Of a DNA stretch of 45,080 nucleotides, positions 7 through 32,798 are shown piece after piece. Within the stretch, counting starts at the first letter, position 1. Each line of letters begins with the position of its first letter. The notes under the pieces were generated by a model that had not been told where the DNA came from, did not search any database, and saw only the letters and a program-made list of their open reading frames with translations. The stretch is from positions 1 through 45,080 of IMG/VR virus record IMGVR_UViG_3300047548_000225; one strand, written 5' to 3'. The translations under genes and the position numbers were made by a program. Source of the stretch: a virus.

Positions 7-94
7 GGAAGTTTGGGTGAGTGGCTTAAACCAGCTGTCTAGAAAGCAGCCGATCTGAAAGGATCCGTGAGTTCGAATCTCACAGCTTCCGCCA
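7..94 (+). tRNA. tRNA-Ser(AGA)
   Basis: Seven-base acceptor stem GGAAGTT/AGCTTCC, T arm GTGAG-TTCGAAT-CTCAC, long class II variable arm and encoded GCCA tail. The anticodon loop CTAGAAA gives AGA, reading UCU. A34 is unusual for a bacterial-type tRNA. First gene of a 19-tRNA cluster. Confidence 0.93.
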
Positions 95-117
95 CTATTT
101 TATGAAAGGAGTGAGTT

Positions 118-681
118 ATGCCAAGTGTGTTTTTGACAAGCGACACGCACTTCGGACACGTTGGTGTGACGAAGTTCTTGCGTGAAGATGGTACGAAGTT
201 ACGTCCATGGGACTCTGTTGAGGAAATGGATGAAGAAATGGTCAAGAGGTGGAACGAAACAGTGAAGCCAACTGACAAAGTTTACCACTTAGGTGACGTA
301 GTGATCAACAGAAAGGCTCTGCAGATCATGCGTCGTTTGAATGGTGATAAGGTTTTAATTAAGGGAAACCACGATATCTTTAAGATGGAAGATTACCTTC
401 CGCACTTTAGAGAAATTCGTGCGTACCACGTGATGAACGGAATGATTCTTTCTCACATTCCACTTCACCCAGATAGTCTTGGTCGTTTTGGTACAAACAT
501 CCATGGTCACTTACACTCGAATGTAGTTAAGACCGAAATCAATGGTGTTACTGTTCCAGATTTAAGATACATCTGTGTGTGCGTGGAACAGACAGACTTC
601 CGACCAATTCTCTTTGAAGATGTTATCCAAAGAGTAAAGGATCAAGGTGGTGCAGTTGGTTTCCGTAACGGTAACAAATAA
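118..681 (+). CDS. Calcineurin-like metallophosphoesterase
   Basis: 187-aa phosphoesterase with the full metallophosphatase motif set: D9-x-H11, GD at 59-60, GNHD at 83-86, H113 and the GHLH motif around 130-133. Family members use two metal ions to hydrolyse phosphomonoesters or phosphodiesters (nucleotides, RNA ends). The substrate cannot be read from sequence. A good AAAGGAG ribosome site precedes the ATG. It sits between two serine tRNA genes, and its stop codon abuts the next tRNA at 682, so it is probably co-transcribed with the cluster. A role in tRNA or RNA end chemistry is possible but only inference. Confidence 0.85.
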   Translation: MPSVFLTSDTHFGHVGVTKFLREDGTKLRPWDSVEEMDEEMVKRWNETVKPTDKVYHLGDVVINRKALQIMRRLNGDKVLIKGNHDIFKMEDYLPHFREIRAYHVMNGMILSHIPLHPDSLGRFGTNIHGHLHSNVVKTEINGVTVPDLRYICVCVEQTDFRPILFEDVIQRVKDQGGAVGFRNGNK

Positions 682-768
682 GGAAGATGTGTTGCAAGGT
701 GCGACAGGGGTTTGCTAAACCCTCGTCCAGAAATGGGCTGATAGGTTCGATTCCTATATCTTCCGCCA
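682..768 (+). tRNA. tRNA-Ser(GCT)
   Basis: Acceptor GGAAGAT/ATCTTCC, anticodon loop TTGCTAA (GCT, reads AGC/AGU), long variable arm, T arm ATAGG-TTCGATT-CCTAT, encoded GCCA. Begins one base after the phosphoesterase stop. Confidence 0.93.
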
Positions 769-777
769 GTTGAAAGT

Positions 778-872
778 GCTCCCATAGTTTAATGGTAAAA
801 CTCCAGATTTATACTCTGGCTATGCCTCTAGATGAGGGGATGATCTAGGTTCGAATCCTAGTGGGAGTACCA
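778..872 (+). tRNA. tRNA with UAU anticodon and long variable arm
   Basis: Acceptor GCTCCCA/TGGGAGT, discriminator A, encoded CCA, D arm GTTT/AAAC, anticodon stem CCAGA/TCTGG with loop TTTATAC, T arm CTAGG-TTCGAAT-CCTAG. Positions 34-36 are TAT, which would read the isoleucine codon AUA. About 25 nt separate the anticodon and T stems and hold a hairpin CCTC/GAGG, a class II-like variable arm not expected for isoleucine. tRNA-Tyr(GTA) is encoded separately at 1929. Amino-acid identity is uncertain. Confidence 0.75.
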
Positions 873-875
873 AAT

Positions 876-958
876 GCCCCTGTGGACAAATTGGTAAAGT
901 CAGCACTCTCAAAAGGTGTGCCGCAGGTTTCTCGGTTCGAGTCCGAGCAGGGGTACCA
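876..958 (+). tRNA. tRNA-Leu(CAA)
   Basis: Acceptor GCCCCTG/CAGGGGT, anticodon loop CTCAAAA (CAA, reads UUG), T arm CTCGG-TTCGAGT-CCGAG, encoded ACCA. Confidence 0.9.
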
Positions 959-966
959 AATAATTG

Positions 967-995
967 TTGTCTTGCAATGAAAGATGATGTATAAT
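967..995 (+). promoter_or_regulatory. Sigma70-like promoter before tRNA-Leu(TAA)
   Basis: TTGTCT at 967-972, 17-nt spacer starting TGCAA, TATAAT at 990-995. Start expected near 1002, just before the tRNA at 1007. Member of the TTGNCT family seen throughout the window. Confidence 0.75.
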
Positions 996-1006
996 AATGT
1001 TTCGTT

Positions 1007-1083
1007 GGGGATGTGATGGAATTGGTATACGTATCGGACTTAAAATCCGAGTTTTGCGGGTTCGAGTCCCGCCATCCCTACCA
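1007..1083 (+). tRNA. tRNA-Leu(TAA)
   Basis: Acceptor GGGGATG/CATCCCT, anticodon stem TCGGA/TCCGA with loop CTTAAAA (TAA, reads UUA), T arm GCGGG-TTCGAGT-CCCGC, encoded ACCA. The variable region is short for leucine. Confidence 0.93.
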
Positions 1084-1090
1084 GATTACT

Positions 1091-1166
1091 GTCGCTGTGG
1101 TCTAATGGAGAAGGCAACGCTCTTCTAAAGCGTAAGATGTGGGTTCGATTCCTGCCAGCGACGCCA
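1091..1166 (+). tRNA. tRNA-Arg(TCT)
   Basis: Acceptor GTCGCTG/CAGCGAC, anticodon loop CTTCTAA (TCT, reads AGA/AGG), canonical T loop, encoded GCCA. A typical phage tRNA for codons rare in many hosts. Confidence 0.94.
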
Positions 1167-1181
1167 GTTATAGGAGTCGTT

Positions 1182-1373
1182 ATGTTGATTAATGTCGGTT
1201 CTACTTGGCGTGGCTCTGATTATTCAGAGTTTGTCGTAGAAGCAGTAAAAGTTCTTGCTGGTGACACTTGGGTGCACTATGCCAGAGCAGATAAGTTTGG
1301 GAGTGCAACTGATCAAAAATTCTCTTGTCTTGCAGGAGCATTTGTGGTAAGATTCTCTCCTTGTGTTAGTTAA
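1182..1373 (+). CDS. Small protein of unknown function
   Basis: 63 aa from the ATG at 1182, which has TAGGAG seven bases upstream. An earlier in-frame ATG at 1137 lies inside tRNA-Arg and is rejected. It starts MLINVGSTWRG and is mildly acidic with no membrane segment. Sits between tRNA-Arg and tRNA-Cys, one base before the latter. Family not recognised. Confidence 0.55.
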   Translation: MLINVGSTWRGSDYSEFVVEAVKVLAGDTWVHYARADKFGSATDQKFSCLAGAFVVRFSPCVS

Positions 1374-1374
1374 T

Positions 1375-1448
1375 GTAGGTGGAGCCAGTTGGACAGGCAC
1401 TGGATTGCAAACCCATGGAAGCAGGTTCGATTCCTGTCACCTACTCCA
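1375..1448 (+). tRNA. tRNA-Cys(GCA)
   Basis: Acceptor GTAGGTG/CACCTAC, loop TTGCAAA (GCA), T arm GCAGG-TTCGATT-CCTGT, and discriminator U73, the known cysteine identity base. Encoded CCA. The anticodon stem has mismatches at its ends. Confidence 0.88.
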
Positions 1449-1456
1449 AAAAGTTG

Positions 1457-1485
1457 TTGACTTTTTCTTCATCTTGATGTAGAAT
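1457..1485 (+). promoter_or_regulatory. Sigma70-like promoter upstream of tRNA-Glu
   Basis: TTGACT at 1457-1462, 17-nt spacer, TAGAAT at 1480-1485. Transcription would enter the non-coding leader at 1490-1654 and tRNA-Glu. Confidence 0.65.
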
Positions 1486-1489
1486 TATG

Positions 1490-1654
1490 TCTTAGTTAGT
1501 TGATGTTCTTTTAAAAATTTAGAAACTATCGCAAGTCCTCTATAAGTCGTGGGTCGAATACTACGCAATGAGGCATGAAGTAAGGGAGTTCGCTGGAAGA
1601 GCGAACTTGCTAGAGTTGCGTTGGGTTTTATTTTGGGGCAGACTCTAGCACTAT
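1490..1654 (+). ncRNA. Structured non-coding segment before tRNA-Glu
   Basis: No gene. Contains hairpin GTTCGCT/AGCGAAC near 1589-1608 and stem CTAGAGT/ACTCTAG enclosing about 25 nt (roughly 1610-1650), plus a T-arm-like piece around 1547-1565. Probably a processed leader or a stable RNA. Function unknown. Confidence 0.4.
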
Positions 1655-1730
1655 GCACCGTTGGACTTCTGGTGAGGTCACCACCCTTTCAAGGTGGCTA
1701 GGTTGGGTTCGAATCCCACACGGTGTACCA
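1655..1730 (+). tRNA. tRNA-Glu(TTC)
   Basis: Acceptor GCACCGT/ACGGTGT, anticodon arm CCACC-CTTTCAA-GGTGG (TTC), T arm TGGG-TTCGAAT-CCCA, encoded ACCA. Confidence 0.94.
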
Positions 1731-1917
1731 TTAGTTGTGTTGTTATGGAAAATTTGGTGTATCCGATAATGCACTCTCACTTACGGCTCTGTGTGCACGC
1801 ACCCGTAACGAGTTGGACTACGACGAGATAGGATTGATCATCCCATACAGTAAGCGTAGGACGTTAAAAGCAAACGAATGAGGTTGGGCTCATTCCATAA
1901 CATGACAACACAACTAA
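1731..1917 (+). ncRNA. Long-stem structured RNA 1
   Basis: 187-nt non-coding element closed by a 19-bp helix: 1731-1743 pairs with 1905-1917 (13 bp) and 1744-1749 with 1894-1899 (6 bp) across a 5-nt bulge. Inside are helices TTACGG/CCGTAA, CTACG/CGTAG enclosing GGAT/ATCC, and a hairpin GAATGAG/CTCATTC. It fills the gap between tRNA-Glu and tRNA-Tyr. No family recognised by eye. Confidence 0.6.
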
Positions 1918-1928
1918 TGGTAGTTTAT

Positions 1929-2021
1929 GGAGCAATTGATGCTATGGCGTGTGCATCCCGAGACTGTAAATCTCGTCCCTCTGGGTAAACATTGTTGGTT
2001 CGACTCCAACTTGCTCCACCA
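1929..2021 (+). tRNA. tRNA-Tyr(GTA)
   Basis: Acceptor GGAGCAA/TTGCTCC, anticodon arm CGAGA-CTGTAAA-TCTCG (GTA), long variable arm as expected for bacterial tyrosine tRNA, encoded ACCA. Confidence 0.94.
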
Positions 2022-2025
2022 GAAT

Positions 2026-2146
2026 TTAGTGAGTGCTGTTCACAGCAACCGTGTTACAAGTCAGAGGTTGAGGCTTCTGTATCGCAAGATAGTATGTTTA
2101 CATACACCGTGTTACAAGTGAAGGGTTGAGGCTCTTCCTTACTAAT
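2026..2146 (+). ncRNA. Structured RNA 2 with duplicated UUGAGG-loop hairpins
   Basis: Closed by TTAGTGAG/CTTACTAA (one wobble). Interior hairpins: TGCTGT/ACAGCA, TATC-GCAA-GATA (GNRA tetraloop) and GTATG/CATAC. The sequence ACCGTGTTACAAGT occurs twice, each time followed by a 6-bp hairpin with the identical loop TTGAGG (stems CAGAGG/CTTCTG and GAAGGG/CTCTTC). Loop identity with stem covariation argues for a conserved RNA element. No coding frame looks real here. Confidence 0.55.
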
Positions 2147-2152
2147 CTATTT

Positions 2153-2227
2153 GGCTCGTTCATATAGTGGCTATTATGTCGGTCTGTCTAACCGAACATA
2201 GGAGTTCGATTCTCCTACGAGTCGCCA
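2153..2227 (+). tRNA. tRNA-Asp(GTC)
   Basis: Acceptor GGCTCGT/ACGAGTC, anticodon arm TCGGT-CTGTCTA-ACCGA (GTC), T arm GGAG-TTCGATT-CTCC, discriminator G, encoded CCA. Confidence 0.94.
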
Positions 2228-2507
2228 AGAATTGCTGCTGGTAACAGCAATGGGTTGATGTGCTCCAGCCCTTATAACGAAGAGCCTCTCGGCGACGGAG
2301 AGTAAGTGGGTCGTGAGTTTGCTGCATACTGATAACATAATAGTTATCGATGTCATCCGCAAGATGGCTTTACCTCTAAAATGCAGATAGTTTAGACTGT
2401 GACTGATAGACAGTTGGTTCATGATAAGGTCGCCAGAAGTACCTGTCCGTTCTCGCTTAAGAGCGCATCTCCGCAAGAGATAAGGTTTACCAGACCATAG
2501 CAACAGT
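2228..2507 (+). ncRNA. Structured non-coding segment 3
   Basis: 280 nt without a credible gene, rich in perfect hairpins: ATTGCTG/CAGCAAT, CTCTC/GAGAG, a stem CTGCAT/ATGCAG enclosing GATAAC/GTTATC and CATC/GATG, then CGCT/AGCG and ATCTC/GAGAT. Two of the hairpins carry GCAA tetraloops (C-GCAA-G). Spans tRNA-Asp to tRNA-Met. Probably one or more stable RNAs of unknown role. Confidence 0.5.
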
Positions 2508-2580
2508 TGCGGGTTCACACGGCGTGACGCTGGTCTCATAAGCCAGTTGGGAGTAGGTTCGAGTCCTGCGCCCGCAACCA
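2508..2580 (+). tRNA. tRNA-Met(CAT), short D loop
   Basis: Acceptor TGCGGGT/GCCCGCA with encoded ACCA, anticodon arm CTGGT-CTCATAA-GCCAG (CAT), T arm GTAGG-TTCGAGT-CCTGC. The D arm is reduced (TCAC/GTGA, 5-nt loop, no GG). The 3' end resembles initiator tRNA, but position 1 forms U-A rather than a mismatch and the three G-C pairs of an initiator anticodon stem are absent. Elongator, initiator or lysidine-type Ile cannot be separated by eye. Confidence 0.8.
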
Positions 2581-2582
2581 CT

Positions 2583-2656
2583 GCCCTATTAGTTAAATGG
2601 TAGAACATCGGTTTTGTAATCCGAGGACGGGAGTTCGATTCTCTCATGGGGCACCA
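2583..2656 (+). tRNA. tRNA-Thr(TGT)
   Basis: Acceptor GCCCTAT/ATGGGGC, loop TTTGTAA (TGT), T arm GGGAG-TTCGATT-CTCTC, encoded ACCA. The CCA (2654-2656) is also the first part of the long inverted repeat 2654-2765. Confidence 0.92.
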
Positions 2657-2765
2657 TATAAAAGTAGATTGACGAGAACATCTTACCACTGCAATGGATT
2701 CATGTTCAAGTCGGTTTGCAGACTGAGCGGATCTATAAATCACCGTTCAATCTACTTTTATATGG
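2654..2765 (+). ncRNA. Long-stem structured RNA 4
   Basis: A perfect 19-bp inverted repeat (2654-2672 with 2747-2765) encloses 74 nt that contain CTGCAA/TTGCAG or, alternatively, GAACAT/ATGTTC. The 5' arm starts on the CCA of tRNA-Thr, so the helix would mask that 3' end until processed. Non-coding, function unknown. Confidence 0.6.
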
Positions 2766-2768
2766 TAT

Positions 2769-2846
2769 CATAGTGAAGATTATTATAGATGGAGGACGAC
2801 CCGTCACTGGATAATCGACAGGAAGTCTGTAGTAATCTTCACTATG
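2769..2846 (+). ncRNA. Long-stem structured RNA 5
   Basis: A perfect 14-bp inverted repeat (2769-2782 with 2833-2846) encloses 50 nt. Its arms carry ATAGTGAAG, a sequence shared with the arms of the next element at 2937-3028. Non-coding. Confidence 0.55.
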
Positions 2847-2936
2847 GTCGCAAGCATCGTGATATGTACCCAACCTTGCGGAAGGGGAGGATCGGGATTC
2901 GATGGTCTGTTAATGACTTAGGTTGAACAGCAGACA
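2847..2936 (+). other. Non-coding spacer with CGCAAG/CTTGCG helix
   Basis: Contains CGCAAG (2850-2855) facing CTTGCG about 20 nt downstream and an outer CCAACC/GGTTG pairing. No gene seen. It links structured RNAs 5 and 6 and may belong to one larger transcript. Confidence 0.3.
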
Positions 2937-3028
2937 CCATATTGAAGTGTATTGATAGTCGCAAGTAGAGTCCTTATTAGAGTGGATGTCCAGTTGACAA
3001 ATTCTAATTTCAGTACACTTCACTATGG
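2937..3028 (+). ncRNA. Long-stem structured RNA 6
   Basis: A 15-nt inverted repeat with one mismatch (2937-2951 with 3014-3028) encloses about 62 nt. Its arm sequence TGAAGTGTA resembles the arms of RNA 5. It lies just upstream of tRNA-Pro. Confidence 0.55.
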
Positions 3029-3036
3029 TCTTTTAT

Positions 3037-3112
3037 CTCCGTATGGCGTAATCAGGTAGCGTGGTGCGTTTGGGGCGCAGCGGTCTAGGTTCAAATCCTA
3101 GTACGGAGACCA
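3037..3112 (+). tRNA. tRNA-Pro(TGG)
   Basis: Acceptor CTCCGTA/TACGGAG, anticodon loop TTTGGGG (TGG) on a TGCG/CGCA stem with one mismatch below, T arm CTAGG-TTCAAAT-CCTAG, encoded ACCA. Confidence 0.9.
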
Positions 3113-3136
3113 GTTATAAGTAGTAGACAGTTTAAT

Positions 3137-3213
3137 GCGGATGTGATGGAATTGGTATACGTGTCGGTCTTAGAAGCCGAATTTTGTGAGTTCGAGTCTC
3201 ACCATCCGCACCA
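3137..3213 (+). tRNA. tRNA-Leu(TAG)
   Basis: Acceptor GCGGATG/CATCCGC, anticodon arm TCGGT-CTTAGAA-GCCGA (TAG, reads CUA), T arm GTGAG-TTCGAGT-CTCAC, encoded ACCA. Body closely similar to tRNA-Leu(TAA) at 1007, so probably a duplicate with a changed anticodon. Confidence 0.93.
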
Positions 3214-3228
3214 ATTTATGAGGACAAT

Positions 3229-3468
3229 ATGCGTAGACAAAAACGAGAAAAGCATTTTGGTCTAACAGTTGTGGTTGAAGACGGTAAATTTGAGAAGGCA
3301 CTTCGCACATTCAAGAAGAAAGTAGAAGAGTCTGGTTTGCTCAAAGAGGTGAAAGATCGTCAGCAATATGTTAAGCCATCTATCAAGAGAAAACTAGCAA
3401 AGAGTGCAGCAAAGAAACGCTGGCAAAAGAAGTTATCTCAAGATAGTTTGCCAAAGAAAGAGTATTAA
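3229..3468 (+). CDS. rpsU: Ribosomal protein bS21 homologue
   Basis: 79-aa, very basic protein that aligns along its length with bacterial bS21: an N-terminal beta strand, the conserved helix containing FEKALRTFKKKVEESG, the EVKDRQQYVKPSIKRK stretch and a lysine-rich tail. bS21 sits on the 30S platform near the anti-Shine-Dalgarno sequence and helps mRNA selection, so a phage copy could replace the host protein and bias initiation. The start follows AGGAC. It lies between tRNA-Leu and tRNA-Asn, fitting a translation-takeover module. Phage bS21 genes are known from aquatic phages. Confidence 0.9.
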   Translation: MRRQKREKHFGLTVVVEDGKFEKALRTFKKKVEESGLLKEVKDRQQYVKPSIKRKLAKSAAKKRWQKKLSQDSLPKKEY

Positions 3469-3475
3469 GTTTTAT

Positions 3476-3551
3476 TCCCCATGAGCAATCTAGGTGAGGG
3501 CAGCTGACTGTTAATCAGTGAAGCGTGGTTCGAATCCACGATGGGGAGCCA
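3476..3551 (+). tRNA. tRNA-Asn(GTT)
   Basis: Acceptor TCCCCAT/ATGGGGA, loop CTGTTAA (GTT), T arm CGTGG-TTCGAAT-CCACG, discriminator G, encoded CCA. Starts eight bases after the bS21 stop. Confidence 0.94.
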
Positions 3552-3556
3552 GTTAT

Positions 3557-3628
3557 GGGCTGTTGGTATAATTGGGAACACACCTGCCTTGCACGCAGGA
3601 GTACGGGGTTCGACTCCCCGACGGTCCA
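3557..3628 (+). tRNA. tRNA-Ala(TGC), CCA not encoded
   Basis: Acceptor GGGCTGT/ACGGTCC, anticodon arm CCTGC-CTTGCAC-GCAGG (TGC), T arm CGGGG-TTCGACT-CCCCG, discriminator A. The next bases are CACA, so CCA must be added after transcription. Confidence 0.9.
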
Positions 3629-3645
3629 CACATAGTAGAAATTAT

Positions 3646-3653
3646 TATAAATA
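3646..3653 (+). promoter_or_regulatory. T4-type late promoter (TATAAATA)
   Basis: Exact TATAAATA, the T4 late promoter element read by gp55/gp33-modified RNA polymerase, 13 nt before the GIY-YIG gene start at 3659. Confidence 0.7.
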
Positions 3654-3658
3654 GAGTT

Positions 3659-4291
3659 ATGTACTACTATCTCTATCAAATCACCAATCTGGTGAATAAT
3701 AAAATCTACGTTGGAGTTCATTCAACATCAGATATGACTGATGGGTATATGGGCTCTGGAAAAGTAATCAGGAGTGCTATTGCTAAGCACGGGATCCTGA
3801 ACTTTAGAAAAGACATACTTGAGTATTTCGAGAATGCGGAATCTATGTATGCCAGGGAACGCGAGGTTGTTACCGAAAGTTTCCTGTTACGTGAAGATGT
3901 ATATAACCTTTGCTGTGGTGGTGCTGGTGGTTTTGATTATATCAACAACAATCTGGATCTAGTTGAAAGAAACACCAAAGCGTCTAGGAATGGTAAAGAT
4001 AAGAAATCTAAAACACTAAAGAATCTTTGGGAATCTGGTGTGTATGCGAACCGAGTGACGAATGATAATTTTAGAGAAGCATCTAAGAAAGCGTTCTTAA
4101 ACAGGACTCATACAGAAGACACAAAAGACAAGATTAGACAATCAGTTGTCGGTAAACAGACTGGTGTGAATAATTCGCAGTACGGAACTATGTGGATAAC
4201 AAATGGTTCTGTGAATAAAAAGATAAGAAATAATGATGCAATTCCTGAAGGATGGACTCGTGGTCGTGTTAAGATTTGCTCTGTTAGTTAA
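3659..4291 (+). CDS. GIY-YIG homing endonuclease
   Basis: 210 aa from the ATG at 3659; the longer frame runs back into tRNA-Ala. The N-terminal motif YLYQITN...NNKIYVGVH is the GIY-YIG signature, followed by a GSGK-containing nuclease core. The middle carries NUMOD-like DNA-binding repeats (TEDTKDKIRQSVVGK) and the C-terminus ends with TMWITNG and IPEGW motifs. Such free-standing enzymes cut intergenic sites and promote their own spread, here within a tRNA cluster. A TATAAATA element suggests late expression. The last 14 bases overlap tRNA-Thr(AGT). Paralogue at 4695. Confidence 0.88.
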   Translation: MYYYLYQITNLVNNKIYVGVHSTSDMTDGYMGSGKVIRSAIAKHGILNFRKDILEYFENAESMYAREREVVTESFLLREDVYNLCCGGAGGFDYINNNLDLVERNTKASRNGKDKKSKTLKNLWESGVYANRVTNDNFREASKKAFLNRTHTEDTKDKIRQSVVGKQTGVNNSQYGTMWITNGSVNKKIRNNDAIPEGWTRGRVKICSVS

Positions 4292-4351
4292 ATGGTATAA
4301 CAGTTGATTAGTAATCATCAATTGGGAGTTCGATTCTCTCACGGAGCACCA
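4278..4351 (+). tRNA. tRNA-Thr(AGT)
   Basis: Acceptor GCTCTGT/ACGGAGC, D stem GTTA/TAAC, anticodon stem GTTGA/TCATC with one T-T mismatch, loop TTAGTAA (AGT, reads ACU), T arm GGGAG-TTCGATT-CTCTC, encoded ACCA. The body is similar to tRNA-Thr(TGT) at 2583. The 5' end overlaps the end of the GIY-YIG gene. A34 is unusual. Confidence 0.87.
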
Positions 4352-4367
4352 ATTAAGGAGAGTTATC

Positions 4368-4550
4368 TTGGTAGCAAAGAATGATATCACTGGTGATTCA
4401 ATCATCTCTAGACATTCAAAAGCATACGAAGAAAACATCGAGAAGATCTTTGGAGATAAATCTGAAGAGAAGGCTCGAAAGGCTAAAGAAAAGGAAGAAT
4501 ACTTCGCCAAACTTGCAGCCGAAACAAAAGCAAGAATGGAATCTCAATAA
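4368..4550 (+). CDS. Small charged helical protein, TTG start
   Basis: 60 aa, starting at TTG 4368 because AAGGAG at 4355-4360 sits at the right distance; the first ATG (4380) is out of frame and too far from it. The sequence is Lys/Glu/Ala-rich, ending in a predicted helix (KARKAKEKEEYFAKLAAETKA). Sits between tRNA-Thr and tRNA-Trp. No family recognised. Confidence 0.6.
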   Translation: MVAKNDITGDSIISRHSKAYEENIEKIFGDKSEEKARKAKEKEEYFAKLAAETKARMESQ

Positions 4551-4553
4551 TAT

Positions 4554-4626
4554 TACCGTGTAGCACAATTGGCGGTGCAGAGGTCTCCAAAACCTAAGGT
4601 TGGCGGTTCAAGTCCGTCCACGGTAG
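4554..4626 (+). tRNA. tRNA-Trp(CCA), 3' CCA not encoded
   Basis: Acceptor TACCGTG/CACGGTA, loop CTCCAAA (CCA), T arm GGCGG-TTCAAGT-CCGTC, discriminator G73 as expected for tryptophan. The following bases are CCC, not CCA. Confidence 0.92.
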
Positions 4627-4659
4627 CCCTTCGTTTAACTCGGCAGAGAGTTGAACTAT

Positions 4660-4694: not shown

Positions 4695-5315
4695 ATGTAC
4701 TATTTGGTCTACAAAATCACAAATACCTTAAATGGTAAAACCTATATCGGATGTCATAAAACCAAAGACAAAAACGATGGTTATATGGGTTCTGGTAAAC
4801 ACATCAAACGAGCAATAAACAAATATGGTGTTGATAACTTCACGAAAGAAATCATCGCTGAATGTTCTTGCTCTGAAGAGATGTTTGCAAAAGAAAAAGA
4901 ACTTGTCGTTCTTGATGAAATGAGTTATAATATGAAGGTTGGTGGCGAAGGTGGTTTCGACTATCTTAATAACACTGGTCTTAATACTTCTTGGAAAGAT
5001 AAACAAGAGAGAAACTCTAAGATATCAAAAGCGATAAAGGATAAGTGGGAGTCAGATCCAACTTATGCCAAAGCGTTACGAGAAAGACTGGGGGTCAGAA
5101 CCGATAATTTTATTGAGTCTGCCAAAGTTTCTTTCTTGGGTAAAGAGCATACTGATGAAACTAAAGAAAAGATTAGAAAATCAGTAGCAGGTAAACATGT
5201 TGGTGTACTAAATTCTCAACACGGAACTATGTGGATAACGAATGGAGTTTCCAACAAAAAGATAGACAAAACTGATTTAATACCAGAAGGGTGGAGAAGA
5301 GGTAGAGTTTTATAA
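4695..5315 (+). CDS. GIY-YIG homing endonuclease, second copy
   Basis: 206 aa, paralogous to the protein at 3659 along its length: N-terminal YLVYKITN...GKTYIGCH, core DGYMGSGK, central LGKEHTDETKEKIRKSVAGK repeat, and C-terminal GTMWITNG and IPEGWRRGR. The GIY-YIG domain supplies the catalytic Tyr/Arg/Glu set and the C-terminal repeats the target binding. It lies between tRNA-Trp and tRNA-Gly, three bases before the latter, so copies appear to insert at tRNA boundaries. A late promoter precedes it. Confidence 0.9.
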   Translation: MYYLVYKITNTLNGKTYIGCHKTKDKNDGYMGSGKHIKRAINKYGVDNFTKEIIAECSCSEEMFAKEKELVVLDEMSYNMKVGGEGGFDYLNNTGLNTSWKDKQERNSKISKAIKDKWESDPTYAKALRERLGVRTDNFIESAKVSFLGKEHTDETKEKIRKSVAGKHVGVLNSQHGTMWITNGVSNKKIDKTDLIPEGWRRGRVL

Positions 5316-5422: not shown

Positions 5423-5905
5423 ATGAAAAAACTAGACATTGACGAAGTTAAAGCGTTCATTGAAGCACAAAGTCCCGCTACAAAAATCTACATTGGTGGT
5501 GACTCAGAACGATTCCCTATCGGAAATGACTGGTACGCTGATTACACTCTTGCCATTGTAGTACATATTGACGGTAAACATGGATGTAAGATTTTCGGTG
5601 AAGTTCAAAGAGAACGTGACTGGGATCAAAAGAAGAATCGTCCACGTATGCGTCTAATGAATGAAACAATGAAGGTTGCCGAATTGTATCTAAAGTTACA
5701 CGATGTCTTAGAAGACAGAGATGTAGAAATCCATCTAGACATCAATCCAGATGAAAGATATGGTTCTAGTTGTGTTATCAACGAAGCAGTTGGTTATATC
5801 AAAGGGATGTGTAATGTTATTCCTATGGTTAAACCACGTGCTTGGGCAGCATCATATTGTGCCGACCGACTAAAACACATCCTTTCTACACAGAAAGCAG
5901 CCTGA
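5423..5905 (+). CDS. RNase H-like protein (YkuK/DUF458 type)
   Basis: 160 aa. The pattern IYIGGDSER near residues 22-30, an internal strand LAIVVHIDGKHGCKIFGEV, LDINPDE near 105-111 and a C-terminal KPRAWAASYCADR fits the RNase H-like YkuK family, with acidic residues on strands 1 and 4 as candidate metal ligands. Members are predicted nucleases of unknown substrate. Starts at an ATG about 15 nt after GAGGTAAG. Follows the tRNA cluster and precedes an HNH endonuclease. Confidence 0.7.
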   Translation: MKKLDIDEVKAFIEAQSPATKIYIGGDSERFPIGNDWYADYTLAIVVHIDGKHGCKIFGEVQRERDWDQKKNRPRMRLMNETMKVAELYLKLHDVLEDRDVEIHLDINPDERYGSSCVINEAVGYIKGMCNVIPMVKPRAWAASYCADRLKHILSTQKAA

Positions 5906-5921
5906 CTGAAATCAGCGACTT

Positions 5922-5929
5922 TATAAATA
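5922..5929 (+). promoter_or_regulatory. T4-type late promoter (TATAAATA)
   Basis: TATAAATA 30 nt upstream of the HNH homing endonuclease at 5959: the third homing gene preceded by this element. Confidence 0.7.
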
Positions 5930-5958
5930 AGATTATAAGGTTGCTGACAGAGGTTAAA

Positions 5959-6549
5959 ATGAATTACGAAAGAATCTACAACCAGATTGTAGAACGAGCA
6001 AAGTGCCGAATTATTGATGGGTATATGGAACGACATCATATCGTTCCTAGATCCCTGGGTGGTTCAGACGATATTTCCAATTTAGTATCACTCACTGCAA
6101 GAGAGCATTATTTGTGTCACTGGTTATTGGCAAAACACACCAATGATAAGAGAATGTGGTTAGCGTTTTCGATGATGACTGTCTCTTCAGATAAGCATCA
6201 AAGAATAAAGAGTGGTAGATTATTTGAACGTGCACGAATTGCAAGAGCATATGGTATCTCTGGAGAGAATAATCCAATGTTCGGTAAGAAGTCTGCTTGT
6301 GTTAGTCACACAGAAGAAACTAAAGCAAAGATTCGTGCATCGAAGTTAGGTAAGAAAAGAGATCCATTCAATCGGACTCCTGCTTCACAGGAAACGAAAG
6401 ATAGAATCTCTGCTGCGAATAAAGGTAAAGTTCCTCATAATAAAGGTAAAACTGCACCGAAGTTTGAATGCCCTCATTGTAAGAAAATGGTTGATGCTAT
6501 GAATCTTGCGAAGTGGCATAACGATAAGTGTAAACAAAAGGCAGCATAA
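5959..6549 (+). CDS. HNH homing endonuclease
   Basis: 196 aa from the ATG at 5959. The HNH/beta-beta-alpha-metal core is at residues 23-60 (ERHHIVPRSLGG, N41, H50). Two NUMOD3-like DNA-binding segments follow (NPMFGKK...HTEETKAKIRASKLGKK and TKDRISAANKGK), then a C-terminal zinc-knuckle CPHCKK...HNDKC. It nicks or cuts DNA to spread. The zinc tail resembles that of the orphan minus-strand protein at 28503, suggesting shared origin. Confidence 0.88.
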   Translation: MNYERIYNQIVERAKCRIIDGYMERHHIVPRSLGGSDDISNLVSLTAREHYLCHWLLAKHTNDKRMWLAFSMMTVSSDKHQRIKSGRLFERARIARAYGISGENNPMFGKKSACVSHTEETKAKIRASKLGKKRDPFNRTPASQETKDRISAANKGKVPHNKGKTAPKFECPHCKKMVDAMNLAKWHNDKCKQKAA

Positions 6550-27888: not shown

Positions 27889-28514
27889 GTTTAATCACAG
27901 CAGAACAGTTTCACCACTTGTTCCCTCGTGCACAAGACCCAGCAGGATGGGTTGAATCGATGAACAACGTGTTCCCAACATATGATATCAATACACCACA
28001 ACGAGTTGCAGCTTTCTTAGCGCAGTGTGGTCATGAGTCTGGTGGTTGGACAGTATTTGAAGAGAACTTGAATTATTCTGCACAAGGCTTGTGTAGTATT
28101 TTCAAGAAGTATTTCCCTACAATTGAATCAGCAACACCTTATGCACGCAAGCCAGAAATGATTGCAAATAAGGTTTATGCGAATCGTATGGGTAATGGTC
28201 CAGAGTCGTCAGGTGATGGATGGAGATACCGTGGTCGTGGACCAATCCAACTGACTGGATCTGCAAACTATAAAGCATTTGCTCAGGAGATGTTTGATGA
28301 CTGGCAAAACCTTTATGATAATCCAGACTGGGTTACTGCAGATCGCGACTTCGCATTGATGTCAGCAATTTGGTTTTGGAACAAGAATAAACTCAACGTC
28401 CAAGCAGACAGTGGTGACATCAAACTAATGACTAAGAAGATAAATGGTGGCTTCATCGGTCTCGATGACCGCATCAAGCACTACAATGAAGCCATGCACT
28501 TATTAGTTGGATAA
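27885..28514 (+). CDS. Endolysin, glycoside hydrolase family 19
   Basis: 209 aa lysozyme/chitinase-fold enzyme. QCGHESGGW (E51) and FEENLNYSA (E60) hold the catalytic acids; RYRGRGPIQLTG and WFWNKNKLN are GH19 hallmarks. It cleaves peptidoglycan glycan bonds for lysis. No signal peptide, so a holin elsewhere is expected. ATGA overlap with phoH and a 12-base tail-to-tail overlap with the minus-strand gene. Confidence 0.9.
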   Translation: MSLITAEQFHHLFPRAQDPAGWVESMNNVFPTYDINTPQRVAAFLAQCGHESGGWTVFEENLNYSAQGLCSIFKKYFPTIESATPYARKPEMIANKVYANRMGNGPESSGDGWRYRGRGPIQLTGSANYKAFAQEMFDDWQNLYDNPDWVTADRDFALMSAIWFWNKNKLNVQADSGDIKLMTKKINGGFIGLDDRIKHYNEAMHLLVG

Positions 28515-29006
28515 TTTACAGTTATCGAAATGCCATCTTTTAGCGTTTCGTTCATCTACTTCTTTACCGCAATGTGGACAAGTTAGTTTTGGACGATTCG
28601 CTAAAATTTTACCAATTCTGTTATAGTATTCTGGATCTCTTTTATCTACACTTGCTTGAATTTTAGATAAAGATTCGTTAGTGTGCTTCTTACCATAGAA
28701 GTGATTATTAGAACCATGTTTTGATATTGATTGTTTACGACGAATTTCTTCGGATTTATCACCAAAGATTTCGTCGTAAGTTTTATTAGTTCTTCGTGCC
28801 CTTTGTCTCTGTATAAATTCGTCAGAATGAGTTTTACCATAGAATGGGTTTAACTCTCCAGGAAGTGATACTGGGGTTGTATTTCTTGGGATTGTTTCGA
28901 TGATTAGATCTTCAACGAATACTTCTGCAACATCGACTCCAAATGATTCGCAGAGTCTTGCATGAATTACTTGAAAATCATCGTTTGTTAGAGTATACTT
29001 ACTCAT
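28503..29006 (-). CDS. Orphan NUMOD3/zinc-finger protein (homing endonuclease relic)
   Basis: 167 aa on the minus strand amid rightward genes. Two NUMOD3-like repeats (NPFYGKTHSDEFIQRQR and NHFYGKKHTNESLSKIQ) and a C-terminal zinc knuckle CPHCGKEVDERNAKRWHFDN match the target-binding half of HNH homing enzymes, such as 5959, but no HNH or GIY-YIG nuclease core is present. The N-terminal 45 residues are unrelated. Probably a domain-orphaned homing element or a regulator derived from one. Confidence 0.7.
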   Translation of the reverse strand: MSKYTLTNDDFQVIHARLCESFGVDVAEVFVEDLIIETIPRNTTPVSLPGELNPFYGKTHSDEFIQRQRARRTNKTYDEIFGDKSEEIRRKQSISKHGSNNHFYGKKHTNESLSKIQASVDKRDPEYYNRIGKILANRPKLTCPHCGKEVDERNAKRWHFDNCKLSN

Positions 29007-29335: not shown

Positions 29336-29989
29336 ATGAAAAACTTTATACATCATGATTTACCCAAACTTGAGCGTGACACGAAACCCGATGGAACTCG
29401 TTTATACAAAACGCCATCGGGTTTTGCCTATCCAAGCGTCACAACAGTTACGGGATTGCACACAGCAAAGGGGATCGCAGAGTGGCGAAAGAGAGTCGGC
29501 AATGAAGAAGCCAACAGAGTCTCTGCCAAAGCATCTGCACGTGGAACAAGAATCCACCAGTACTGTGAAGACTATCTACGAGGAAACTTATTCGAAGCCG
29601 ACATGTTCGATCTCGAAATGTTCAACTCAATCAAACCACTACTCGACCAAGTCGATAACATTCACTGCTTGGAAGATCCACTCTATTCTGACTTTCTACA
29701 AGTTGCAGGAACAGTTGATTGCATCGGCGAGTTCCAAGGTAAACTTTCTGTCATAGACTTTAAGACTGCTTCTCGTCCAAAAGATCGAGATGACATTCAT
29801 AACTACTTTATGCAGACTGCAGCATATGCAGTTGCCTTTGAAGAACGTACTGGTATTCCTATTGGTCGCTTAGTTATTATCATGGCAGTTGATAATGACG
29901 ATCCTCGTTGGTTCATTGAGAAACGAGACAACTGGATTGGTGGTTTCCGCAAGTTGCGTTTAGAATATAAAAATAAATTTGGCGTGTAA
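29336..29989 (+). CDS. PD-(D/E)XK exonuclease (RecB/MGME1-like)
   Basis: 217 aa from the ATG at 29336; the longer frame overlaps the upstream gene. Core motifs: GTRIHQYCEDY (H74), VAGTVDCIGEF (D128), SVIDFKTASRP (D141-x-K143) and a C-terminal QTAAYAVAFEERTG helix (motif IV/QxxxY-like). Such enzymes trim DNA ends in repair, recombination or replication. The -35 of the tmRNA promoter lies in its last codons. Confidence 0.82.
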   Translation: MKNFIHHDLPKLERDTKPDGTRLYKTPSGFAYPSVTTVTGLHTAKGIAEWRKRVGNEEANRVSAKASARGTRIHQYCEDYLRGNLFEADMFDLEMFNSIKPLLDQVDNIHCLEDPLYSDFLQVAGTVDCIGEFQGKLSVIDFKTASRPKDRDDIHNYFMQTAAYAVAFEERTGIPIGRLVIIMAVDNDDPRWFIEKRDNWIGGFRKLRLEYKNKFGV

Positions 29990-30007
29990 GACTAAATACT
30001 GTATAAT
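29979..30007 (+). promoter_or_regulatory. Promoter of the tmRNA gene
   Basis: TTGGCG 29979-29984, exactly 17 nt, TATAAT 30002-30007. Start expected near 30014. Confidence 0.85.
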
Positions 30008-30077
30008 AGATGTATTGCTGTATGAGGCAAAGAGAAAAGTGTTGCGGACGTGGGTTCGACTCCCACCACCTCCACCA

Positions 30078-30169
30078 GGAAGCATTGGGTTCGAACCCCA
30101 CCGTATGCAAGGACACCCGAAAGGGACTAACTTACACTTGCGGACTATGTGGCTAGTATGCTTCCTAAT
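30078..30169 (+). other. Intervening spacer of the permuted tmRNA
   Basis: Removed during maturation by analogy with bacterial two-piece tmRNA. Closed by an 8-bp perfect stem GGAAGCAT (30078-30085)/ATGCTTCC (30158-30165) directly extending the acceptor helix. It contains a second T-arm-like hairpin GGGTTCGAACCC near 30087-30098. Confidence 0.8.
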
Positions 30170-30257
30170 GGGGGTGTACTTGGTTTCGACGTGGCAAAGA
30201 GTAACAGAGTGGACAGCACGACAGGCGATCGTCGTAAATGAAGCAAAAACTATAAAT

Positions 30258-30299
30258 GCAAATGACGCATTTTTCGGAGAAGTTCGCTTAGCAGCGTAA
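30258..30299 (+). other. tmRNA proteolysis-tag reading frame
   Basis: GCA AAT GAC ... GCG TAA encodes ANDAFFGEVRLAA. AND at the resume site and LAA at the end match known tags. The bases before it (AAAAACTATAAAT) resemble the A-rich stretch before the bacterial resume codon. Confidence 0.85.
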
Positions 30300-30314
30300 C
30301 CTCCGTGGGGTTTC

Positions 30315-30354
30315 GGTGGGATTCCTTATTACCAAATATCCCACCACTAATTTT
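30315..30354 (+). terminator. Terminator hairpin after the tmRNA tag
   Basis: GGTGGGAT (30315-30322) pairs with ATCCCACC (30338-30345), then ACTAATTTT. It may also form part of the mature 3' structure of the coding piece. Confidence 0.65.
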
Positions 30355-30367
30355 ACATGGAGATATA

Positions 30368-30631
30368 ATGGAAATTCGTCCAATGAATGACAGAGTGCTT
30401 GTTGCAGAAAATAAGCGTGAGAATAAAACAGAAACAGGTATCATCCTTGCAGGAACACGTGGTACTGGAGATACTTCCAAAGCAACTGTGCTTGCTATTG
30501 GACCAGAAGTTAAAGATGTCAAAGTTGGCGACATTGTTCTTCTAGACTGGGCTAAAGCAGCACCAGTTAAAGTTGGTGAAGTCCAACGAGCAATGATTAA
30601 AGAAGAGTTTATTATTGCTGTTTGTGAATGA
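30368..30631 (+). CDS. groES: GroES-like co-chaperonin
   Basis: 87 aa from the ATG at 30368 after GGAG. Starts EIRPMNDRVLVAENKRENKT, has the mobile-loop region ETGIILAGT, a roof-loop area and a final beta strand EEFIIAVCE: the complete Cpn10 fold. It would cap host GroEL to fold phage proteins, as T4 gp31 does, but here by a true GroES homologue. No GroEL is in the window. Directly downstream of the tmRNA. Confidence 0.9.
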   Translation: MEIRPMNDRVLVAENKRENKTETGIILAGTRGTGDTSKATVLAIGPEVKDVKVGDIVLLDWAKAAPVKVGEVQRAMIKEEFIIAVCE

Positions 30632-32237: not shown

Positions 32238-32798
32238 ATGATGAACAAACTAAACATTCAACTAAGTGATAAGGATCAGTCAGCACATTCCTTCTACTTG
32301 TTTATGGATGAGGTGTCGTTGTCTACAACTAAACCAATGGTTGAATGGGTCTTTGATTCGAATTTCTCCGAAGAAAGACCAGACATGCTAAATCTAATCA
32401 TCTGTTCTCCAGGTGGTGATTTGAATGCAGCGTTTGCCTTAATTGACACAATGCGTGGTTCAGCAATTCCAGTTCGTACCATTGGACTTGGACAGATCGC
32501 TTCTGCTGGACTTATGATTTTCATTGCTGGCGAAAAAGGTAATCGTATCTTAACACCAAACACTTCTATTCTATCTCACCAGTATGCTTGGGGTGCTATT
32601 GGTAAGGAACACGAACTATTTGCTACAGTTAAAGAGTTCGATCTTACCACCAAGAAAATGATTGCACACTACAAGAAATGTACTGGCTTGAACGAAAAGA
32701 AGATTCGTGAAGTTTTGCTACCACCACATGATGTGTGGCTGAATGGACACGAAGCATTAGAACTAGGAATTTGCGACCATGTTAAAGAACTATCTTAA
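32238..32798 (+). CDS. clpP: ClpP-like serine protease
   Basis: 186 aa ClpP/crotonase-fold protease. ICSPGGDLNAAFALIDTM (oxyanion Gly-Gly), nucleophile S89 in GQIASAGLM, and catalytic His114 in SILSHQYAWG. The usual Asp lies in the C-terminal half. It could degrade tmRNA-tagged peptides or host proteins with a host Clp ATPase (inference) or act alone. Directly follows the SleB gene with no gap. Confidence 0.85.
   Translation: MMNKLNIQLSDKDQSAHSFYLFMDEVSLSTTKPMVEWVFDSNFSEERPDMLNLIICSPGGDLNAAFALIDTMRGSAIPVRTIGLGQIASAGLMIFIAGEKGNRILTPNTSILSHQYAWGAIGKEHELFATVKEFDLTTKKMIAHYKKCTGLNEKKIREVLLPPHDVWLNGHEALELGICDHVKELS

Follow-up and report, generated by a model that had tools for sequence, protein, structure and literature searches.

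The window, by which we mean the entire 45,080-nucleotide stretch analyzed here (positions 1 to 45,080 of IMG/VR virus record IMGVR_UViG_3300047548_000225), belongs to a freshwater-type virus of bacteria. At 30014 to approximately 30354 on its plus strand it carries a circularly permuted tmRNA gene of the beta type, an identification confirmed by sequence analysis. The gene is set inside a T4-like gene order and, as a preliminary description had placed it, lies between a PD-(D/E)XK exonuclease gene (29336-29989, +; PF12705, 32.3 bits) and a directly downstream GroES (Cpn10) gene (30368-30631, +; PF00166, 54.1 bits). The same description had recognized a permuted two-piece tmRNA and proposed a search with covariance models, in which two Rfam models scored above their cut-offs: RF04321 (tmRNA_permuted) with 132.7 bits (E 6e-26, cut-off 47) over 30016-30299, and RF01850 (beta_tmRNA) with 99.5 bits (cut-off 84). 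ARAGORN reported a permuted tmRNA (tmRNA*) at 29985-30390 with the tag ANDAFFGEVRLAA. Together with covariation in 67 relatives, these results uphold the two-piece assignment. A nucleotide search of the window tmRNA gene against GenBank phages returned no match.

Along the DNA, the order is acceptor piece, spacer, coding piece. The acceptor piece, the tRNA-like 3' portion (30014-30077, +), is delimited by both Rfam models, ARAGORN and covariation, with its 5' end inferred from the promoter, and comprises a helix-2 strand, the T arm (30050-30066, +), the acceptor strand CACCTCC (30067-30073, +) and an encoded ACCA that ends at 30077. The intervening spacer of 92 nt (30078-30169, +), which has a conserved closing stem, is missing from the mature tmRNA. 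The coding, mRNA-like piece (30170-30354, +; sequence, ARAGORN and Rfam) begins with GGGGGTG and has the motif TTTCGAC; its start was assigned to G30170 because of the pairing with CACCTCC, including G3-U70. The piece boundaries given in the preliminary description agree with the sequence at all these points. The 3' end of the coding piece likely follows a hairpin, GGTGGGA...TCCCACC (30315-30345, +), seen in the sequence and in the RF01850 alignment, whose loop, TTCCTTATTACCAAATA, resembles the beta-type motif CCTTGTTACCAA. The tag reading frame (30258-30299, +; ARAGORN) runs from GCA to TAA and encodes the 13-aa tag ANDAFFGEVRLAA, with a resume codon, a hydrophobic end and a stop.

Related loci were gathered via GroES, the exonuclease, PhoH and a downstream ORF, their tmRNAs were called and the genes segmented, and pairing was counted in an alignment of 67 distinct tmRNA genes of related phages. 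All seven pairs of the acceptor stem, CACCTCC (30067-30073) with GGGGGTG (30170-30176), are formed in 67/67 relatives, and at three positions one pair is exchanged for another (for instance T-A or G-C in place of C-G). The third acceptor pair, G3-U70 (U-G as encoded), the known alanine identity signal, is invariant in all 67. The T stem has G-C, A-T, T-A and C-G variants with pairing maintained, and the spacer stem, GGAAGCAT (30078-30085) with ATGCTTCC (30158-30165), is paired in 96.5% of cells, all eight of its pairs varying and many of the changes being compensatory. In helix 2, the 5' strand TGCTGT (30016-30021, +) pairs with ACAGCA (30213-30218) in every relative, and C-G/U-A swaps are found in 22 of the 67. 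Overall, 96.5-100% pairing is seen for the acceptor, T, spacer and first helix-2 stems. Sliding one strand by 1-3 columns reduced pairing to 22-65% in the acceptor, spacer and helix-2 stems; the T stem dropped less, to 59-88%. The acceptor helix, the spacer stem and this first helix-2 pairing had all been proposed in the preliminary description, and each holds. Its second helix-2 pairing, TGTTGC/GTAACA, was ruled out, some of its pairs being present in no more than 2/67 and 22/67 relatives; the pairing conserved instead is the neighboring GTTG (30041-30044) with TGGC (30192-30195), formed in 53-67 of the 67 relatives per pair and roughly as in Rfam's drawing.

A putative sigma70-type promoter (29979-30007, +), recognized from sequence and conservation, consists of TTGGCG (29979-29984), a 17-nt spacer and TATAAT (30002-30007), its -35 box overlapping the end of the exonuclease gene. 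In 51 of 69 distinct relatives we found a perfect TATAAT no more than 45 nt from helix 2, compared with 8.5 expected from a mononucleotide shuffle, and in 47 relatives a box with at least five of the six TATAAT letters lies 8-9 nt before helix 2. The consensus promoter that had been noted is present in the right place, and its TATAAT is conserved in most relatives. These data bear on whether the locus could be a defunct piece of host ssrA, either a captured fragment or what is left of an attachment site, as in some prophages. Phages do integrate at ssrA, and ssrA fragments are found in prophage genomes (PMC9004378); however, the gene here is complete, its promoter is conserved, compensatory mutation extends over 67 distinct relatives and the tmRNA is located in T4-like gene order, and we consider a remnant highly improbable. 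A decoy that blocks host trans-translation, similar to the tag-less tmRNA-like RNA of mycobacteriophage DS6A, which is reported to inhibit host tmRNA (PMC11915505), is also very unlikely, given the intact tag frame with its ...LAA end and the unvarying alanine identity pair in the window and its relatives. The window tmRNA gene is real, complete and well conserved, and judged by its sequence it is very probably functional.

With high likelihood, the locus would be a functional phage ssrA gene, permuted and betaproteobacterial in type, that performs trans-translation with host factors. SmpB was found neither in the window nor in 13 related contigs of 68-167 kb, several of them perhaps incomplete, and because none was present in the phage contigs searched, the phage presumably brings the RNA and relies on host SmpB and AlaRS. 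For transcription, cleavage, charging, tagging and benefit, we infer the following course. Host RNA polymerase would transcribe the precursor from the sigma70-type promoter, starting at about 30014, and folding of the precursor would bring the two acceptor strands together. Host RNase P would cut at G30170 and host tRNA-processing enzymes would trim the 3' end to the CCA at 30077, removing the 92-nt spacer and leaving two paired RNA pieces. The tmRNA could then be charged by host AlaRS through G3-U70 and placed by host SmpB on stalled ribosomes, where addition of ANDAFFGEVRLAA would free the ribosomes and mark truncated proteins for Clp-type proteolysis, in which the phage's own ClpP-like subunit may take part. 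The benefit would likely be ribosome recycling while nucleolytic degradation yields many non-stop mRNAs. It is plausible that the phage controls ribosome rescue and peptide tagging via its own tmRNA.

The ClpP-like peptidase gene lies 1.8 kb downstream of the tmRNA (32238-32798, +; PF00574, 97.4 bits against a cut-off of 20.2). Its product matches PDB ClpP chains with E 3e-16, and alignment to PDB 6hwm places Ser (GQIASAG), His (SHQ) and Asp (HDVWL) opposite the ClpP triad; the catalytic triad is apparently intact. In 115 of 124 tmRNA loci, a set in which loci overlap and some share a contig, a ClpP relative follows 0.9-3.4 kb downstream. The link between the two genes may reflect only a shared core gene order, because ClpP relatives are also found at loci without a called tmRNA (of the 126 ClpP loci, 115 have both genes); ClpP next to the tmRNA is a neighborhood, not proof of partnership. 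The presence of the tmRNA beside a phage ClpP-like peptidase makes phage-directed tagging and degradation testable. The main use of the gene might instead be redirected tagging, in which an altered tag changes the protease or adaptor and spares or targets particular proteins. This would be in keeping with the nearby ClpP-like protein and with the occurrence of two tag classes, 13-aa ...GEVRLAA and 10-aa ...ALAA, within one phage group, but both classes retain the LAA end, which is recognized by ClpX in known systems, and we regard redirected tagging as unlikely to be the main use. Nearly all tags of the relatives end in ...LAA, the usual one being ANDAQFALAA and similar, and the window tag departs from the usual host-like ANDxxxALAA form.

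The preliminary description had called a phage copy of a permuted tmRNA highly unusual, a view that neither the related phages nor the literature supports. Counted by distinct exonuclease sequence, the fetched loci number 85; in at least 63 of these the exonuclease is followed downstream by a permuted tmRNA, and among the other 22, several lie on contigs that run out within a few hundred bases. In relatives, the gap between exonuclease and tmRNA is often less than 20 nt, the tmRNA often has these same two neighbors, exonuclease and GroES, and a pattern scan of viral contigs detected dozens of two-piece tmRNAs. A two-piece ssrA has been described in the Methylophilales phage Melnitz, with 53 two-piece phage tmRNAs counted (PMC9004378), and a curated tmRNA database holds 79 bacteriophage sequences, all forms together (PMC11915505). 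The presence of the gene is no surprise, because of these published phage cases and because most relatives carry one. The two-piece tmRNA of phages is an established but little-studied trait, and this ribosome-rescue RNA is carried as a regular feature by a large T4-like phage group and is not a mere curiosity. Melnitz and related marine phages resemble the phage of the window in being T4-like and in having a permuted tmRNA driven by a promoter (PMC9004378). The Melnitz ssrA is reported to be of alphaproteobacterial type and to have a transcription coactivator and a glutamine riboswitch as neighbors (PMC9004378), whereas the window tmRNA is beta-type, is flanked by exonuclease and GroES genes and lies near ClpP. 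One-piece phage tmRNAs (e.g., those of cluster C1 mycobacteriophages) likewise let the phage provide trans-translation RNA, but have the standard gene form, while that of the window is permuted.

With bacterial permuted tmRNAs (RF04321/RF01850), the window gene shares gene order, the tRNA-like domain, G3-U70 and an ...LAA tag; it differs from them in being phage-borne, in its 13-aa tag, in a weaker match in the beta 3' region and in its spacer, which measures 92 nt compared with 24-42 nt in the sampled beta-/alpha-type bacterial genes. In a tree of the mature core, the window tmRNA falls within phage sequences, and the nearest sampled bacterial tmRNAs are permuted and come from one family, in the order of G635, with genomes of 1.6-3.1 Mb; the node uniting them has a support of 0.85. 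Spacers in that family are short (30-35 nt) but resemble those of the phages in their closing stem and in their frequent TGAT end. A small-genome freshwater betaproteobacterium would fit here. Scanning genome contigs with the acceptor sequence returned mainly Woeseiaceae, and those put through ARAGORN had one-piece tmRNAs.

The real surprise is not the window tmRNA itself, but the protein genes in the spacers of its relatives. Spacer length ranges from 3 to 229 nt among 107 distinct spacers. Of the 53 distinct spacers that reach 75 nt or more, ten hold a small ORF whose ATG lies within the first 19 nt and whose stop codon is right at the spacer's end, compared with 0.46 expected when the interior was shuffled, a figure that is descriptive, as the criterion was framed after seeing examples. 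L218 was excluded as a nested-ORF case, its spacer having no in-frame stop. Independent support came from a search for a 41-aa membrane-protein-like family, which found 27 loci, in 12 of which the gene is within the tmRNA spacer (L423-L430, L432, L433, L436 and L438), including three whose tmRNA ARAGORN misses; for one of these, L427, the tmRNA scored 93.8 bits with Rfam. The nested gene, at 2501-2626 in each of L423, L436 and L427, starts just past the processing stem and stops at the stem end. The gene lies directly upstream of the tmRNA in L439 and L442-L445, and elsewhere in L434 and L441. Among the nested copies, dS far exceeds dN (e.g., 0.2/0.03, 1.51/0.14, 1.12/0.16), which points to purifying selection, as for such a protein.

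A second ORF, of 62 aa, fills the spacer at four loci (L419 2501-2689, L420, L421 and L422), all of its copies being within spacers and only a few substitutions apart. L419 and L420 encode an identical 62-aa protein surrounded by differing acceptor stems, suggesting that the spacer moves as a cassette between tmRNA backgrounds. In a different phage group, a 72-aa ORF occupies the spacer of L097 (3389-3604) and L028, and its stop overlaps the coding-piece start (GGGGGTGTAA). L331 has a tRNA-Arg (ccg) predicted by ARAGORN in its tmRNA spacer, within 2514-2922. Often the processing stem also accommodates the nested gene's translation signals, with a ribosome-binding site on the 5' strand and the stop codon at the 3' strand. 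Searches of GenBank phages and PHROGs yielded no credible homologues of the nested proteins. One permuted tmRNA with a tRNA-Ala in its intervening sequence has been published (PMC11915505) and, like L331, shares the feature of an extra gene in the excised spacer, whereas the relatives carry mostly small protein genes and the window spacer carries neither. We consider it likely that the excised spacer is a cargo site for small protein genes (and one predicted tRNA), the window representing its empty form. If so, one transcript could yield both a tmRNA and a small mRNA, and the nested genes, if real, would be protein genes within the portion of a structured RNA gene that is thrown away, an arrangement of which we found no report in the mainly open-access papers searched.

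The window spacer itself contains no ORF with an ATG in its first 19 nt and a stop at its end. It folds with an MFE of -27.8 kcal/mol (z -2.1), and 6 of 200 shuffles were equally good. Inside it, at 30086-30103, is a T-arm-like hairpin, TGGGTTCGAACCCCA, possibly a decayed tRNA; among the fetched loci, the window's own copy was the only one found (GGGTTCGAACCCCA).

The rare 13-aa tag ANDAFFGEVRLAA recurs in L203 and L339, phages whose spacers differ from each other and from that of the window, and L190, L196, L201 and L231 have a common spacer with different tags. Because of these two patterns, parts of the tmRNA seem to recombine among phages. Elsewhere in the window, 17 tRNA genes form a cluster at 7-4629, with GIY-YIG-like ORFs near or between the cluster genes (3572-4291 and 4695-5315). 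NUMOD3-bearing ORFs are located at 5842-6549, where an HNH domain is also present, and at 28503-29006 (-), and both are likely homing endonucleases.
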